A DNA stretch of 34,754 bases, taken from Bacteroidia bacterium. Lineage in GTDB: Bacteria > Bacteroidota > Bacteroidia > Bacteroidales > JAPLDU01. The notes below the pieces were generated by a model. It searched no databases. It worked only from the letters and a program-made list of their open reading frames with translations, and was not told the origin of the DNA. Below, one piece after another: positions 16,903 to 29,562 of the stretch (position 1 is its first letter; each line of letters begins with the position of its first letter). The stretch is from NCBI GenBank assembly GCA_026391255.1, contig JAPLDU010000056.1:1-34754 (forward strand), read 5' to 3'. The position numbers were made by a program, and so were the translations under genes.

Positions 16903-19900
16903 TCACCTGATAATATTCAGTTGCAATGTCTGCACGGAACCTGCAGTAGTGAGCCTGACCAGGTATGATCCATTGGCAAATTCCGACAGGTCAATATCAA
17001 CCCGGTGGTTTCCTGCACTGAAAATTCCCGATACAGGTTTTGAAACAATGCTTCCGGCCAGGGTACAGATAGAAATATCAATATGCGAATCGCTGTTCGT
17101 GTAAAACTGAATTGTTGAGCTCTTAGAGGCCGGATTAGGGTACATACATGGAAATTCAGTACCCGATAATTTCAGGGATGCGGCAATACTGATCCCGTTG
17201 GCCGTGAACTGGTTGTTTCCGCTGATCCATTGATCAGCAAAAACAGGAATTTCGGTATTTTCAACCGGGTTCCAGAGACGCAGACAGAATGTTTCCAAAT
17301 TATATAGTCCGTCTTTTTCAGCAGACAGGTCATCATCACCCCAAATTGTAACGGCATTGAAACCTGAACTAAGAACCGTGTTTCCAACCAGTAATCCGTT
17401 TTCGTCAAACACAGCAATCTCAGAACTTTCAGGGAATCCGGCAAGAGCGCCGGGCATTAATCCAAGAGTCATATTATTCCCGGTAATGACGGGTTTACCA
17501 AAATGCCGGTTTTCCTGGTCCAACGGGAAAGATTTATCATTGTTAAAAGCATCTGCCGGGTAAGTCAGAGTTGAAGCTGATAAAAGATATACATAGTAAC
17601 CCTGTCCAGGGATCATATTCCCAATGCCGTTCAGGTTGTAATATGGCCAATAGACCAGGCCTGAACCACTTTTCACCAGGACAATTTCTGAAACAATGGA
17701 ACTCATCATAGTTTCAATATTTCCATTTGTATTACGAAGATAGGCAATAAGGTTCCAACCCTGTGACAGGCTGATTGGAGTATTCTGAGGTATTACAGCT
17801 ATGCCATTTATGCACAATGCTACGGCTGACTGTGTTTTTACCTGGTAACCATTACCGGTAATCATGTTTCCGATATTGTTGATGCCATATACCGGCCAGA
17901 ATACCTGGCCTGTCCCGCTTTTCGCAATCAGAATGTCCGGAATCACCGAAGCCATAACCATATCAATAGCCGGATTTGCAGGTTCAATATAGGTGGAGAA
18001 AATACCCCAGCCCTGGACCAAACTGATCACCTGTGTTTCAGGAACCACGGTCACATCAGCAATATCAGCAGAATCCCTTGGTTCGATTTTAAAAGCGGTG
18101 CCGGTATAGTTCAGTGGGCCGGTGACATTGTATTGCGAGCCGGTCAAAGGAGCATAGGTATAGAACATATTGTTTACACCGGCTGTACATGTACCATCGG
18201 AGATTAGCCATTCATCAGCACCCAGGCTGGGATTGGTACATGTAACATTCTCCACTTTGACCAAAACACCCTCATAATCTTCACACATCTGAGGAATAGT
18301 AATTACCACCGGCGCCGGTAAAATATTGCCGGATGAATTGACAATCAGGTAAGTGATGCTCTGGAGTTCGGTCATCCCAAGATCTTCGCTTACGGTAGCC
18401 CTGAGGGTAATCAGGTCACCCATGGAGACTGTGTTGACGGGCATAGATACATATACCCCATTCCAGGCGCCGGAGCCGTCCTGCAGGAAGAAGCCTGCAG
18501 GTGAACGGGCTGTTACTGTTCCACTGGTCTGTACAACCTGTCCTGCATAAGGAGAAACATTTGCCTGTCCCTGTATCTGATAAATAGTTATCACAGGCGG
18601 AATGAAATATGAAGCAACCGGGGAAGTGGTGTAAAGACCCAGATCATCAGTAGCTGTGATCCTGTAATATACAGTCGTACCTGTTGCCTGTGCAGGTATA
18701 GCTGACGACGTACAATATGTACTCCCTGAAGACAGGTTCATGGTAATGGTATTGGGAAAACTTATTCCATCCGTTCCCCAGCTTAACGACACATAACTGA
18801 CTGTGCCATCATCGGTGACAGTAGCAGATACTGAAACATTGTCGGCAGAAATGGGTGCTGACGGCAAAATTGCAATATTACTCACCACGGGAGGGAAATT
18901 GACAGCGGTATAACCGGTCCAGGTGATATTGTCAATAACAATCTGGTATGCCGTCTTATTTGCTATTTTTATCACGATATTCCCGACAATAGACAGGTTG
19001 GTTACAGTCATAGTGTGCACAGAAAGGTCGTCGAAAGCAACTGATGTACCGACAGAAACACCGTTAATGAAGACCTCGGCCTGTCTGTATCCGGCACTGG
19101 TAAAACCTTTTTTCAGATCTACAGAGATGGAAGATATTCCTCCGGTCAATGTTTGTGAATGGCAGTCGCTCAGGCTTGCCAGATTGCGGAGCAGTAATCC
19201 TCTTCCGTTGATCTGGTAGCCGGCATCATCACGGGATTGAACATAGTACCAGGTGTATCCGTTATCTCCGGTGAATGATCCATTGGTGTATGAGGAAAAA
19301 GCTGCCAGATTGGTGAATGTCTCGGTTTGCGTAACGGGACCAGAGGAAGCGACTAAATAATTCTGAGTTGCAGAAGTGGTTATCAGAGTTTCATTATCGG
19401 TAGCCACAATGTAATAAAATACGGTAGTAGCTGCAGGCTGTGCCGTGATTGGCGAGGAGGTCACCCAGGTACTTCCTGTTGAAAGATTCATGTTTATTGA
19501 ATTTGAAAATGTGAAACCATCTGTACCCCAGTGAAGAATTGCAGAGGTAACACTTCCATTATCAGTTATGGTTGCCGACACATTCACTACAGTAAGTTCA
19601 TTGGGAGATGCAGGGGAAATGCTGAAGCCGGAAATTGATGGCGGTGTGTTGAGCGGGATACAAACATTAGCTGCGCCTGGACTAGCAAAGACCGGGACTG
19701 ACTGGTATGTTCCGGCCGGGGCTATACTGTATGACCAGTTGGAGGCGAGTGAATTATCTGAAGCAGGATCACACAGGATGAGGGAAGGGCCATTCCCGTT
19801 TGGTCCGGTAGGCCATGGACTGACATTGCTGTATGTAACAGCATCAACAACATCTCCGGTAGTATTCAGAATAGTGATGGCAGCCCCGTTGTTGTCTAAA

Positions 19901-21231
19901 TTTCCCAATGTCCAGCCGGTGGAAGTAATGGAGAAAAATGAATTGACCACGGAAGAATATTTTGCAAGTACAATATATGTTCCCGCAGCCATTGCCAATG
20001 GAGGAAATTCATAAGTAACTGCTCCTGTAAAATGGTAGCCGCCCAATGTTATACTCGCCGCACCGGCATTATACAGCTCGATAAACTCAAGAGAATCGGC
20101 GCCTGACCCCGGGTCATCATACATGATCTCATTGATCACAAGTTGGCCGATGGTATTGTTATATATGAAAGGGTAGTTATAAGGAGCTGACATCATATTA
20201 TCTGCAAGATCTGAAATATTACTGATGGTCAAAGTATAGCTTTGCCCGGCAGTAACAGCGGCATTTAAAGCAAGAGTAACAGTATCGGCGCCTGTCAGAG
20301 TAACAACAGAAACAGTTCCAACACCGGTATAGTTAGCTGTGTTCTGGGCTGTTGATGAAGAAACGGCTTCACTGAACACCACTCTGATATTTGTGGAATT
20401 GATGAGAACAACGGATGCAACAGTGGGAGGGGTCACATCGACTGAAATCAATGTGAGGGTTGAAGCAATATCGCTTAGCTGGCTTGAACTGCTGAGAGCA
20501 ACAGTGGAAACAGTTCTGGCAACGTCCCAGGTACCGGTATTGAGGTTGTAAGATCCGGTCAGCCTGCTGAATACGCTACTTACAGGATCACCAAAGAAAA
20601 AGGTGTTGGTTCCGTTACCGAATGTACCCTGAGAACTAATGTAATGATCGTTGTCGGGAAGCATATATCCGCCGGTAGCCGGTTTTGCGTTACCAACTGC
20701 TGTCCCGAAGAACACAACATCTAACGGAATGCTGGTGGCAGTGAGTGAAGATATATTACCGGCAAAGACAGCTATCCCGTCCGCACTGCTACCTCCATTA
20801 CCAAGGACACCGCTTGTTCCTGCATTACCAAAACCATCACCAGACATGGTTTCTGTACTGATGGTCCTGATCCAGTTGGCAGACTGAATATCTGTTGAAC
20901 CTGCACCATTTATCAGTTTGCCTGATCCACCAACATAAAACACATCGCCGGCCGCCACAGCACCAGAGGTGAGGTTAAATCCATATGTCACACCTCCTCC
21001 CGTGATCCAGCCAGTTGATGTGGCTGTTCCATTATTATTAAAAACAACCGAGTAATTGTTCAATGCAAAATTTATTGCCTGTGTGGCCCTTAATTGAACA
21101 TACTCATACGGACTATCCGTACCGGAAGGGTTTGCATTATAGCCTGATATGAGTATCTGGCTATTAGCCAATTGCATCAAAGTAGTTAATAATAAACCAC
21201 TTAACGAGATTTTTAATAGATTTTTTTCCAT
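16903..21231 (-). CDS. multidomain secreted lamin-tail protein with T9SS sorting domain
   Basis: A 1442-aa secreted protein with signal peptide 1-24. Domains in order: an N-terminal beta domain at 25-265 (ILISGYNANPSGTDSPYEYV, itself lamin-tail-like); an Ig-like SwmB/Big-type domain at 267-355 (VRVVFSEAV-like, ...SYTLTISNISDLADN); a lamin-tail domain at 360-500 (INEIMYDDPGSGADSLEFIELYN); an Ig-like domain at about 535-625; a jelly-roll-like segment at about 635-775; a second Ig-like domain at 780-880; an OB-fold-like region at 885-1065 (AGFFLQDGSGAWNGVYV); two GW...GY repeats at 1068-1223 (LVQGWGIFSTYIEP and LSQGWNLIAYLRN); and the T9SS sorting domain at about 1358-1442. Lamin-tail plus OB-fold is a set found in extracellular nuclease-like proteins, but no catalytic domain is seen. 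It is paralogous to the gene upstream (21816-24794). Confidence 0.85.
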   Translation of the reverse strand: MEKNLLKISLSGLLLTTLMQLANSQILISGYNANPSGTDSPYEYVQLRATQAINFALNNYSVVFNNNGTATSTGWITGGGVTYGFNLTSGAVAAGDVFYVGGSGKLINGAGSTDIQSANWIRTISTETMSGDGFGNAGTSGVLGNGGSSADGIAVFAGNISSLTATSIPLDVVFFGTAVGNAKPATGGYMLPDNDHYISSQGTFGNGTNTFFFGDPVSSVFSRLTGSYNLNTGTWDVARTVSTVALSSSSQLSDIASTLTLISVDVTPPTVASVVLINSTNIRVVFSEAVSSSTAQNTANYTGVGTVSVVTLTGADTVTLALNAAVTAGQSYTLTISNISDLADNMMSAPYNYPFIYNNTIGQLVINEIMYDDPGSGADSLEFIELYNAGAASITLGGYHFTGAVTYEFPPLAMAAGTYIVLAKYSSVVNSFFSITSTGWTLGNLDNNGAAITILNTTGDVVDAVTYSNVSPWPTGPNGNGPSLILCDPASDNSLASNWSYSIAPAGTYQSVPVFASPGAANVCIPLNTPPSISGFSISPASPNELTVVNVSATITDNGSVTSAILHWGTDGFTFSNSINMNLSTGSTWVTSSPITAQPAATTVFYYIVATDNETLITTSATQNYLVASSGPVTQTETFTNLAAFSSYTNGSFTGDNGYTWYYVQSRDDAGYQINGRGLLLRNLASLSDCHSQTLTGGISSISVDLKKGFTSAGYRQAEVFINGVSVGTSVAFDDLSVHTMTVTNLSIVGNIVIKIANKTAYQIVIDNITWTGYTAVNFPPVVSNIAILPSAPISADNVSVSATVTDDGTVSYVSLSWGTDGISFPNTITMNLSSGSTYCTSSAIPAQATGTTVYYRITATDDLGLYTTSPVASYFIPPVITIYQIQGQANVSPYAGQVVQTSGTVTARSPAGFFLQDGSGAWNGVYVSMPVNTVSMGDLITLRATVSEDLGMTELQSITYLIVNSSGNILPAPVVITIPQMCEDYEGVLVKVENVTCTNPSLGADEWLISDGTCTAGVNNMFYTYAPLTGSQYNVTGPLNYTGTAFKIEPRDSADIADVTVVPETQVISLVQGWGIFSTYIEPANPAIDMVMASVIPDILIAKSGTGQVFWPVYGINNIGNMITGNGYQVKTQSAVALCINGIAVIPQNTPISLSQGWNLIAYLRNTNGNIETMMSSIVSEIVLVKSGSGLVYWPYYNLNGIGNMIPGQGYYVYLLSASTLTYPADAFNNDKSFPLDQENRHFGKPVITGNNMTLGLMPGALAGFPESSEIAVFDENGLLVGNTVLSSGFNAVTIWGDDDLSAEKDGLYNLETFCLRLWNPVENTEIPVFADQWISGNNQFTANGISIAASLKLSGTEFPCMYPNPASKSSTIQFYTNSDSHIDISICTLAGSIVSKPVSGIFSAGNHRVDIDLSEFANGSYLVRLTTAGSVQTLQLNIIR

Positions 21232-21390
21232 AAGACAGTAGTTTAAATTTTAAAAAAAACAATATCCATTTAGTAATTAACAGAATAAAAAATCTGTCCA
21301 GATGATTTTTTATTCAAGGCAAATTTTAAAAATTCTCAGGAATTCAGCAAATAAAAAACTGATTTCGGCAATTTATTTTAATATTTTTTA

Positions 21391-21598
21391 TCACTGTTAT
21401 CAGGTTAAAATGTTTGAGATTCTTCGCTTCGCTCAGAATGACAAGCTGTTCTGTAGATTTTTAAGGGAGTGGAGTTACTGAAGGCGAAGCCTCCAGTAAC
21501 CCCACTCTTCCACCTCTTAAATGCTTGTCATTCCGAGCGAAACGAAGTGCAGCGAGGAAACTAAAGTTTGTTTTGTCATTTTTACCGGTCAATAGTGA
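21391..21598 (-). mobile_element. 208-bp MITE-like palindromic element, copy A
   Basis: A 208-bp non-coding element with matching ends (TCACTGTTATCAGGTTAAAA at the left, complement of TCACTATTGACCGGTAAAAA at the right), flanked by the 7-bp direct repeat TTTTTTA (21384-21390 and 21599-21605). Inside are the complementary arms TTCGCTTCGCTCAGAATGAC and GTCATTCCGAGCGAAACGAA, and a central 17-bp hairpin (21469-21485 with 21489-21505, loop GAA). It is the inverted counterpart of the element at 29220-29427, of identical length. It encodes no protein, so movement would need a transposase from elsewhere. It lies between the two lamin-tail paralogues; the rest of 21232-21815 is AT-rich with no gene. 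Confidence 0.8.
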
Positions 21599-21815
21599 TT
21601 TTTTATAATGCAATCATTCAGATACTTGCATTATAAAATTAAACTAATTCTGATAAATTTTAATATTTTTAAGGTGTTCGTGAAATCGCTTTGCTAAGTT
21701 AACGATTTTAGATTTTTGATGTTATCATTAAATCAGATGATTATACATACTTCATTAATCATAAATCGTTGATCCTTGTTCTTAAATCAAAAAAGAATGA
21801 CTTTAAAGACAAACA

Positions 21816-24794
21816 CTATTTAGCGCTATTCACTGTGTTTGCAGGGTAGGTCAGAGTGGAAGCTGTATAAAGATATATCTGGTAACCTTGCCCGGGGATC
21901 ATATTCCCGATACCATTCAGGTTGTAATATGGCCAATAAACCAGCCCGGCGCCGCTTTTCACCAGAGCTATGTTTGATACAATGCCACTCATCATGGTCA
22001 CAATATTTCCATTGGTATTTCGCAGGTAAGCAATCATGCTCCAACCTTGTGGCAGGCTGATCGGAGTATTCTGCGGGATAATTGACATACCGGCTATATT
22101 TAAAGGGATGGCTGCCAGGGATTTTATCTGGTACCCGCTTCCGACAGCCATATTACCTATCTGGTTGACGCCGTAGGCAGGCCAGTATACCTGTCCTGGT
22201 CCGTTTTTAATAATCAGGATATCTGAAACAATGGAAGCCATTACAACATCAATGGCCGGATTAGTTGGTGCAACATAGGTGGAGAAAATACTCCAGCCCT
22301 GAACCAGGTTGATCACCTGTGTTTCAGGAACTACGGTCACATCAGCAATATCGGCAGAAAAACGAGGTTCAATCTTATACATATTTAAAGAGTAATAAAC
22401 AGGTCCGGTAACATCGTATAAATCGCCAACTACTGCAGAATAAGGCAAACCCATGTCATCCACCACGCAGTCTCCTGAACTGTCATCCACCAGCCATTCG
22501 CCATTTCCGTAAGCATTATTGGTACATGCTGCATTGTGAACTGTTACCAAAACACCTTCATATCCGTCAGTCTGGCTGACCTGTGATGTTGTCAGAATTA
22601 CAGGGGCTGGCAAAGGATTTGATGAGGAATTGATGATAAAAGAAGTAAGAGATTTGATTTCTGTCATATTATTGTATTCATCCACAAGCCCGGTAATAGT
22701 GACCGAATCACCCAAAGCCGGCTGGTTGGTAACATCATATACAAACACACCATTCCATTCTCCGGTGCCATCCTGTATAAAATATCCTGCAGCATTATAT
22801 TTTCCTGTAACAACGCCCCGGGTGGTAACATAAAAGCCCCTGAGCGGTGAATCACCTGAAATATCAGTGGTATATTGAACATCGTGAACTGAAACATTTC
22901 CGGTCACATCATTATACCAATATATCATATTATTTACGCCATCAATCACCGTATAAGTACGATTCGGTCCTGAAGGGAATTCGACAGTTGCCGGAGCATT
23001 GGAACCATTAATTCTGAATTTGAACTGCAGTGTAGTTGTGACCATCAGTTGGGGTAATGTAACAGTGTAGATCATATCACTGTTAGGACCGGACAATAAT
23101 GTACTACCCCAACTATTGAAGCTACCGGTAATATCCACAAAATCAGTGGATGGGTCAAATAACCCGATGGCATGATAATGTGACATGTTCACCTTAAATG
23201 AAACGTCAGCATTGGGAAGAGGGCAAACATTGGCGGCGCCTGGTGTGGCGTAAATGGTGGCTGATTGATAGATTCCGGCCGGGGTGACGCTATATGACCA
23301 GTTGGAGGCAAGTGAATTATCTGATAAAGGATCACACAGGATGAGGGAAGGGCCATTCCCGTTTGGTTCAGTCGGCCATGGACTTACATTGCTGTATGTT
23401 ACGACATCAACGACATCGCTGGTCGTATTCAGAATAGTAATGGTTGCTCCGTTGTTGTCCAAGGTTCCTGAGGTCCAGCCGGTGGAAGTAATGGAGAAAA
23501 ATGAATTGACTAAAGAAGGGTATTTTGAAAGTACTATATATGTTCCCGCAGCCATTGCCAACGGAGGAAATGCATAAGTAACTGCACCGGTAAAATGATA
23601 GCCGCCCAATGCTATGCTCGTCGCACCGGCATTATACAGCTCGATAAACTCAAGAGAATCGACACCTGAACCAGGGTCATCATACATGATCTCGTTGATC
23701 ACCAACTGGCCGATGGTATTGTTATATATGTATGTGTAGGTGTAAGGAGCTGACATCAAATTATTTGCCATGTCAGCTATATTGCTGATGGTCAAAGTAT
23801 AGCTTTGCCCTGCAGTAACAGCGGCATTTAATGCAAGTGTGACAGTATCAGTACCCGACAGGGTAGCCGTTGATAAAGCCCCGACACCGGTATAGTTAGC
23901 TGTGTTCTGGGCTGTTGATGAGGTAACGGCTTCACTGAATACAACTTTAATAGTCGTGGAATTGATTATACTTACTGATGAAACTGTTGGAGGAGTTATA
24001 TCACCTGAGACGAGAGTGATTAAAGATGCAATATCGGCAAGCTGGCTTGTGGCGGAAAGAGTCTGAATACTACCGGTACGAATCACAGTCCAGCTGCCGG
24101 AATTTGAGTTGTATGTACCTGTCAGTCTGACATAATCATTTGAACCTGGATCAGGACCCATCCAGGTATTGGTCCCATTACCATAGGTCCCCTGAGCGGT
24201 GAGATAATGATCATTATTAGGAAGAACATATCCGCCGGTGGCTGGAACGGCAGATCCAACTGCAGATCCGTAAAAGATTGCATCAATGGGAAGGGTGGTG
24301 GATGTAAGTGAAGAAATCAGACCGGTAAACACACCTACACCATCGGCATTAGAACCCCCGTTACCAAAGACACCGCCTGAACTTGCAGTACCAAAACCAT
24401 CTCCGGCAGTAGTCCCGGTATTAATTGTCCTTATCCAGGTGGCGCCTGAGATATCAGTACTTCCGGAACCATTGATACGTTTGCCTGTGCCCCCCACATA
24501 AAATACATCACCGGCTGCTACTGAACCGGATGTCAGGTTGAATCCATAGGTAAGACTGCCTCCTGCCACCCAACCGCTTGCAATGGCATTACCATTGGTA
24601 CACCAGACAACACAATAATTGGTCGTGCTGAAATTAATGGCCTGAGTTGCTTTTAATTGAACATACTCATATGGAGAGTCCGTCGATGCCGGATTAGCCA
24701 GGAATCCGGAAATTAAAATCTGGCAATAGCTGTGTTGTGTTATTGTAATAAGTAATAAGCAACTTAATAAAATTCCGGTTAGATTTTTTTTCAT
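21816..24794 (-). CDS. multidomain secreted lamin-tail protein lacking a T9SS domain
   Basis: A 992-aa paralogue of the preceding protein. I place the start at the ATG at 24792-24794 (MKKNLTGILLSCLLLITITQ signal peptide); the frame is open seven codons further upstream. It shares the N-terminal beta domain, the SwmB/Big-type Ig domain and the lamin-tail domain (INEIMYDDPGSGVDSLEFIE) at near identity. The middle then differs: a single carbohydrate-binding, CBM20/E-set-like domain (DVSFKVNMSHYHAIGLFDPS ... FVDITGSFNSWG) replaces the two Ig-like domains and the jelly roll. It ends with the OB-fold-like region and two GW...GY repeats, stopping right after LTYPANTVNSAK. The paralogue continues for about 220 residues, including the sorting domain. 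Without one this protein should stay periplasmic, use another route, or be inactive. Confidence 0.82.
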   Translation of the reverse strand: MKKNLTGILLSCLLLITITQHSYCQILISGFLANPASTDSPYEYVQLKATQAINFSTTNYCVVWCTNGNAIASGWVAGGSLTYGFNLTSGSVAAGDVFYVGGTGKRINGSGSTDISGATWIRTINTGTTAGDGFGTASSGGVFGNGGSNADGVGVFTGLISSLTSTTLPIDAIFYGSAVGSAVPATGGYVLPNNDHYLTAQGTYGNGTNTWMGPDPGSNDYVRLTGTYNSNSGSWTVIRTGSIQTLSATSQLADIASLITLVSGDITPPTVSSVSIINSTTIKVVFSEAVTSSTAQNTANYTGVGALSTATLSGTDTVTLALNAAVTAGQSYTLTISNIADMANNLMSAPYTYTYIYNNTIGQLVINEIMYDDPGSGVDSLEFIELYNAGATSIALGGYHFTGAVTYAFPPLAMAAGTYIVLSKYPSLVNSFFSITSTGWTSGTLDNNGATITILNTTSDVVDVVTYSNVSPWPTEPNGNGPSLILCDPLSDNSLASNWSYSVTPAGIYQSATIYATPGAANVCPLPNADVSFKVNMSHYHAIGLFDPSTDFVDITGSFNSWGSTLLSGPNSDMIYTVTLPQLMVTTTLQFKFRINGSNAPATVEFPSGPNRTYTVIDGVNNMIYWYNDVTGNVSVHDVQYTTDISGDSPLRGFYVTTRGVVTGKYNAAGYFIQDGTGEWNGVFVYDVTNQPALGDSVTITGLVDEYNNMTEIKSLTSFIINSSSNPLPAPVILTTSQVSQTDGYEGVLVTVHNAACTNNAYGNGEWLVDDSSGDCVVDDMGLPYSAVVGDLYDVTGPVYYSLNMYKIEPRFSADIADVTVVPETQVINLVQGWSIFSTYVAPTNPAIDVVMASIVSDILIIKNGPGQVYWPAYGVNQIGNMAVGSGYQIKSLAAIPLNIAGMSIIPQNTPISLPQGWSMIAYLRNTNGNIVTMMSGIVSNIALVKSGAGLVYWPYYNLNGIGNMIPGQGYQIYLYTASTLTYPANTVNSAK

Positions 24795-25038
24795 ATGGCA
24801 TAAAATTATAACCAATAATAAAATATTACACTTTAATAATTAACTGAATAAAGAAAAAAACATCTGATTTTTGATCTTCACAAATTATACATTTTAAATA
24901 ATACCACCAAGAAAAAACACTATTTTCACAATATTTTATTAATATTTTTTCTAATCTATGATTTGATAGTACATACAAGATCTCTTGTCCTACCTCATAC
25001 AGGGGTCTCATGAGATTGCTCCGCTGGTTTCTTTTCTT

Positions 25039-29128: not shown

Positions 29129-29219
29129 CCTGACCCGGACGAGCCGGAACCAAATAAGAAATCACAAATCGCAATCCGCCGTGGCGGAACAAATATCAAA
29201 TAAATAATAATAAAAAAAA
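29129..29219 (+). repeat. R1 repeat, copy d, left part
   Basis: It runs from CCTGACCCGGACGAGCCGGA through AATCACAAATCGCAA to the poly-A run at 29212-29219, where the 208-bp element is inserted. It carries an extra TCCGCCGTGGCGGA palindrome at 29175-29188. Confidence 0.7.
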
Positions 29220-29427
29220 TCAATGTTATCCGGTAAAAATAACAAAACTAATCTAAGATTCCTCACTGCACTTCGTTTCGCTCGGAATGACAAGCATTTA
29301 AGAAGTGGAAGATTGGGGTTAACGGAAACTTCGTCTCCGTTAACCCCAATCCCTTATAAATTAACAGAACAACTTGTCATTCTGAGCGAAGCGAAGAATC
29401 TCAAACATTTTAACCGGACAACAATGA
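29220..29427 (+). mobile_element. 208-bp MITE-like palindromic element, copy B
   Basis: It has the same length and ends as copy A (TCAATGTTATCCGGTAAAAA at the left; complement TCATTGTTGTCCGGTTAAAA at the right), in the opposite orientation. The flanks are runs of A on both sides (29212-29219 and 29428-29434), consistent with a 7-bp A/T target duplication. The central hairpin 29313-29329 with 29333-29349 (loop TTC) has one mismatch and differs from copy A by several paired changes. It is inserted into R1 copy d and is therefore younger than it. Confidence 0.8.
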
Positions 29428-29562
29428 AAAAAAATACCAAATTCAAAGTAGTTTTTTCGTAATTGAAATTTTGACCGCCGTGGCGGATTGTTTATTATTT
29501 GTGATTTGTTTTTTGTTATTTGTGATTTTTTTCCAAAATGTGTCAAGATTTCAGAAATTAGA
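29428..29562 (+). repeat. R1 repeat, copy d, right part
   Basis: It continues the R1 element after the MITE: AATTGAAATTTTGA, an inserted ACCGCCGTGGCGGA (29474-29487), then TTGTTTATTATTTGTGATTT and the end GTGTCAAGATTTCAGAAATT, which is the complement of the start of copies b and c. It finishes eight bases before the deacetylase ATG. Confidence 0.7.

Follow-up and report, generated by a model that had tools for sequence, protein, structure and literature searches.

Bioinformatics analysis revealed that the window, the whole stretch of DNA analysed (34,754 nt), carries two copies of what is, with a probability of about 0.8, a non-autonomous, IS4Sa-like MITE of the IS4 family, in which the pairing of a central hairpin is kept by DNA template switching between the two arms. 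Most likely, the hairpin stays paired through copying errors that rewrite one arm from the other, and not through selection on an RNA. The family would thereby constitute a natural record, held within one genome, of the upkeep of palindrome pairing, with double changes, loop flips and arm corrections distributed over 22 dispersed copies.

Copies, Boundaries and Target-Site Duplications

The two 208-nt stretches, located at positions 21391–21598 (copy A) and 29220–29427 (copy B), share the TCAnTGTTrTCCGGT ends that had been ascribed to them in the original prediction. Copies A and B are oppositely oriented: read in the same direction, they are 91% identical, and as given they align poorly. The copies are indeed of equal length, but the element was found to be slightly shorter than the 208 bp initially assigned to it: the mobile unit is 206 bp long, reads 5'-CA...TG-3' and is flanked by a target-site duplication (TSD) of 9 bp. 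Copy A, which was taken as the reference orientation, spans positions 21392–21597 of the plus strand. Its left terminal inverted repeat (TIR), CACTGTTATCAGGTTAAAA, lies at 21392–21410 on the plus strand and is of the end type present on full-length IS elements, and its right TIR lies at 21578–21597 on the minus strand. The TSD of copy A, ATTTTTTAT, is found at 21383–21391 and 21598–21606, and the left and right flanks are identical at 9 of 9 positions. The 7-bp TTTTTTA duplication described earlier for this copy is real, but represents only the inside of the 9-bp repeat, and the reading with TCA...TGA ends and a 7-bp duplication was therefore replaced by that with CA...TG ends and a 9-bp one. 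Copy B (29221–29426, minus strand) is likewise flanked by a perfect 9-bp TSD, AAAAAAAAT, on both sides (29212–29220 and 29427–29435), which had been overlooked. No long ORF was detected within the window copies, and the fold z-scores of the two 208-nt copies relative to shuffled sequence are −6.9 and −13.2. Copy A is situated between two clearly related long genes for lamin-tail-domain proteins (16903–21231 and 21816–24815).

A genome-wide search with the element, as proposed in the original prediction, was performed in the assembly from which the window originates (4.08 Mb, 161 contigs, 97.5% complete), which, judging from its genes and relatives, is probably of the Bacteroidota. It yielded about 22 full-length copies, a few of which have a damaged end, and several fragments. 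In the 19 copies with readable ends, the identity of the 9-bp flanks is 84% within a copy vs. 52% between copies, and it falls to 26% at the tenth base; among widths of 7 to 11 bp, none other than 9 is equally prominent. With the element read as CA...TG, the flanks match at 7 to 9 of the 9 bases in 16 of the 19 copies. The duplicated 9-mer is A+T-rich, its first base being usually A and its last usually T. The element is thus short (206 bp), non-coding, present in multiple copies (22 of them full-length), bounded by TIRs and by a TSD of fixed length (9 bp), and has ends in common with an autonomous element, namely with the full-length IS of other genomes described below. These are the features of a MITE, and the initial designation as MITE-like was correct; it can be sharpened to that of an IS4-type MITE with 9-bp duplications.

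The same assembly also contains a second MITE family, with a length of about 249 bp, at loci L032, L033 and L038 (contigs C26, C4 and C42, respectively). This family has similar ends (TCAnTGATrTCCGGA / TCATTATTGTCCGGT) and a different interior that contains other small palindromes. In addition, a third MITE type may exist on contig C23 near positions 540–830.

Full-Length IS4-Family Partners

A full-length transposon with the same ends, the existence of which had been suggested, does exist, but in other genomes. An end-sequence scan of 393 genomes of the order, in which the reversed-pattern control was near zero, gave matches in 118 genomes, and in six of these (G164, G278, G335, G229, G256 and G012) pairs of oppositely oriented ends are found 1.39–1.43 kb apart. 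Six near-identical full copies of the full-length element are present in G164. The full-length elements encode one ORF of about 400 codons with DUF4372 and DDE_Tnp_1 (PF01609) domains. The deduced transposase matches NF033592 (IS4 family) with 194–200 bits (cut-off, 115), and the Y(2)R(3)E(6)K motif is visible in its sequence. The ends alone are common to the full-length IS elements and the MITE. Duplications of 9 bp with A...T ends are found in the MITEs and also flank most of the full-length IS elements. In G037, both the MITE at L050 and a 1431-bp IS resident in that genome carry the end variant CCGAC in place of CCGGT, which supports recognition of the MITE by the local transposase. A MITE family is thus tied to IS4-type elements that are spread across many families of the order.

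According to the literature, elements of the IS4Sa subgroup have CA------T ends and direct repeats of 8–10 bp (De Palmenaer et al. 2008, PMC2266710), and both the ends (CAnTGTTrT) and the repeat length (9 bp) observed here agree with the table given in that study. The ISPepr1 subgroup (ends YT-AA-YTT, 7–8-bp repeats) was rejected, since the ends differ and the repeats found here are 9 bp long.

In the assembly of the window, neither a DDE_Tnp_1 search nor a direct protein search of the 161 contigs, performed with a positive control, revealed a matching transposase. For a MITE, an autonomous partner in the host genome is usual but not required. Given that none with these ends was found in an assembly that is 97.5% complete, the mover of the MITE may have been lost, may be unassembled, or may be located elsewhere. 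Two DDE transposases of this genome were considered as partners and rejected because their ends are CTAAGTACATGACAAAA, and a TIR pair 1.4 kb apart on contig C28, considered as a full-length element, turned out to be a chance match within ordinary genes. Locus L066 (contig C3, 302–977) contains a direct repeat of 300 bp (94% identity, spacing 376), which adjoins an unrelated DDE transposase gene that has the CTAAGTACATGACAAAA ends.

We infer that the MITE is transposed in trans. A transposase recognising the CAnTGTTrTCCGGTnAAA ends would cut the MITE and paste it into A+T-rich targets of the A-N7-T type, 9 bp of which would be duplicated. The transposase in question remains putative in the host of the window, as counterparts were detected exclusively in other genomes of the order.

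Covariation of the Central Hairpin

The interior of the MITE contains two nested inverted repeats, i.e., an inverted pair of REP-like arms and, between them, a central palindrome, the arms of which measure 19 bp and the loop 3 nt. In copy A, the REP-like arms correspond to an exact 27-nt dispersed palindrome, AGATTCTTCGCTTCGCTCAGAATGACA (21417–21443, plus strand), and to its inverted variant, CTTGTCATTCCGAGCGAAACGAAG (21524–21547, plus strand). The central hairpin of this copy is formed by a 5' arm of 19 nt (21467–21485), the loop GAA (21486–21488), which reads TTC (inverted) in other copies, and a 3' arm of 19 nt (21489–21507), all on the plus strand. In copy B, the hairpin with its 19-nt arms and 3-nt loop occupies positions 29311–29351 of the minus strand.

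Comparison of the two window copies confirmed that four pairs of the central stem differ by double changes that preserve the pairing, exactly as described in the original prediction. The two pairs said to have changed from G-T to G-C are indeed G-C in copy B, but on the plus strand of copy A they are A.C, with G.T on the opposite strand. In an alignment of the 41-nt hairpin from 21 copies, 92.2% of the pairs are standard and 9 of the 19 pairs are doubly changed, with 25 doubly changed cells compared to 5.3 in shuffles. None of 500 shuffles reached the observed pairing, number of doubly changed pairs or number of doubly changed cells, and slid versions of the alignment reduced the pairing to 34–46%. 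Addition of MITEs from G052 and G037 increased the number of doubly changed pairs to 14 and the pairing to 98.5%, the latter value not being a fair sample because the 14 added rows were hand-picked and lean to well-paired copies. The hairpin covariation is thus real on the unselected set of copies. It was not lost when more copies were aligned, and differing lengths or unshared ends, which had likewise been named as outcomes contrary to the initial claim, were not encountered either.

Nearly all copies of the element, as well as MITEs of other genomes, retain the hairpin, a pattern that is also compatible with some structural role. Nevertheless, it does not follow from the paired drift that the structure is under selection or that a replication mechanism depends on the hairpin, as had been proposed, since template switching in the course of ordinary DNA replication gives the same double changes. 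The record held by the family calls for caution before compensatory changes in repeats are taken to prove an RNA function.

Probable Marks of Copying between Arms

Several observations point to one arm being copied from its partner. A GAA-like loop is present in 13 copies and a TTC-like, i.e., inverted, loop in nine, and at least five changes between the two forms are required on a tree of the copies that is weakly supported, near star-like and poorly resolved, so that the order of single events cannot be read from it. The sister copies L009 and L013 have the loops AAA and TTT, respectively. In L023, the whole inner segment is inverted and the ends are unchanged, and in L007, the two marker mismatches of the REP-like inner arms are corrected to the version of the opposite arm. 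L015 differs by an extra G in one of its arms and an extra C in the opposite one. The inner arm of L019 carries a clustered multi-base change, CCG to GGT, which is not accounted for by simple correction of the arms.

According to published work, template switching leaves two signatures, namely, the homogenisation of arms and the inversion of spacers, including that from GAA to TTC (PMC8604942). The correction of quasipalindromes is an established process in E. coli (PMC7202029), and template switching is also among the proposed origins of compensatory changes in RNA genes (PMC8794818). Both signatures, homogenised arms and inverted spacers, are present in the family. We infer that template switching is the cause of the paired changes. 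After insertion, the palindromes would behave as quasipalindrome mutation sites: at a replication fork that runs into the hairpin, the growing strand may switch template to the other arm, and a mutation of one arm would be copied to the partner arm, giving an apparent compensatory change. In other cases, the switch would invert the loop or, as may have happened once, the whole inner segment.

An alternative source of these changes and inversions would be gene conversion or recombination between dispersed copies, combined with cruciform-stimulated inversion, in place of template switching during replication. With 22 similar copies at hand, recombination could have spread double changes from copy to copy, and the inversion in L023 could stem from recombination between the inner arms. 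However, arms of 19 nt separated by a loop of 3 nt offer little length for homologous recombination, and the majority of the double-change types are confined to one or a few copies, making this explanation rather unlikely.

Selection on the hairpin as an RNA, terminator or mRNA-stability structure was considered as well. Here, the MITE would be transcribed from flanking promoters, and stem-breaking mutations would be removed until compensated. Such a role would agree with the strong covariation among the 21 copies and across genomes, with the very stable fold, and with reports that MITE RNAs affect mRNA stability. The stem mismatches, however, comprise 17 G.T, 12 A.C and 21 others, the last of which are evidently tolerated, and G.T is not significantly in excess over A.C; this argues against RNA selection, because selection on an RNA of one strand should favour G.U. 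According to a hand count, 8 of the 13 types of double change involve transversions and cannot proceed via a wobble (G.U) intermediate. Moreover, the stem diverges by 12–14%, faster than its surroundings (~9%), and the loop by 45%. Loop inversions, an inverted inner segment and co-corrected markers are likewise accounted for by template switching, but none of them is predicted by selection on an RNA hairpin. A search of Rfam with the element gave no match. Convergent gene pairs flank only 1 of 16 scorable insertions, as assessed with a crude ORF caller; given this lack of enrichment, a terminator role finds no support in the insertion sites. Taken together, the mixture of mismatches, the transversional double changes, the loop inversions, the events in L023, L007 and L015, and the divergence of the stem favour copying at the DNA level, and RNA selection appears improbable.

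Finally, a requirement of the hairpin for transposition, e.g., with the transposase recognising single-stranded DNA or a cruciform, could account for the central palindromes in MITEs with related ends from the window's genome, G052 and G037, but is highly improbable, given that the ~249-bp family has similar ends and another interior, that the full-length IS elements have only the ends in common with the MITE, and that IS4-family transposases act on double-stranded ends.

The 27-nt REP-Like Palindrome

The REP-like inner arm AGATTCTTCGCTTCGCTCAGAATGACA is present in the window at 21417–21443 and 29375–29401, and was also recorded at loci L108–L187 and L254–L310. With a divergence of 2.6%, it is among the best-conserved parts of the MITE, and the conservation ends at the edges of the unit. 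At least 120 GTDB genome stretches contain exact copies of it. According to the record titles, the matches listed include Bacteroidota, Chloroflexi, Acidobacteria, Firmicutes, Nitrospirae and Nitrospinota, as well as Planctomycetes, Verrucomicrobia, Ignavibacteria, Deltaproteobacteria, Elusimicrobia, Armatimonadetes and others; the sources among these listed matches are mostly MAGs, together with isolates such as Winogradskyella and Chryseobacterium. Within one mismatch, the palindrome occurs in 38 of 296 Bacteroidota genomes, compared to none for the reversed control. The ends of its stem covary (TT/AA, TC/GA, CC/GG, TG/CA and TA/TA) in 50 of 51 matches from viral contigs, and in G600 it is often found as inverted pairs. 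A literature search for the sequence of AGATTCTTCGCTTCGCTCAGAATGACA found no description of it as a repeat. RAYT (Y1_Tnp) genes were rejected as its movers: in six genomes, only 1 of 26 loci (L244) has even a distant copy nearby.

Tentatively, AGATTCTTCGCTTCGCTCAGAATGACA might be a stand-alone, REP-like mobile palindrome of about a dozen or more phyla that is captured as inverted pairs by unrelated elements and the stems of which are kept paired by template switching, a possibility to which we assign a rather low likelihood. Its exact sharing across about a dozen phyla may be more surprising than the MITE itself.

Comparison with Known Systems

The element resembles those of the IS4Sa subgroup (PMC2266710) in its CA------T ends, 9-bp repeats and 1.39–1.43-kb partners with a single ORF for a DDE transposase bearing the YREK motif; the placement is based on the ends, duplication length and motif only. 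Similar to the bacterial MITEs RUP, NEMIS, ERIC and Nezha (PMC3733652), it is short, non-coding, intergenic and multi-copy, with TIRs and strong secondary structure. It belongs to a different family, however, and differs from them by its inverted REP-like arms and its central palindrome with loop inversions. With quasipalindrome and template-switch mutation (PMC7202029, PMC8604942, PMC8794818), the family has in common the homogenisation of arms, the inversion of spacers and multi-base compensatory changes. In contrast to those systems, in which reporter or orthologous genes were used, the record here is held by about 22 dispersed transposon copies of one genome, in which template switching may be counted without a reporter.
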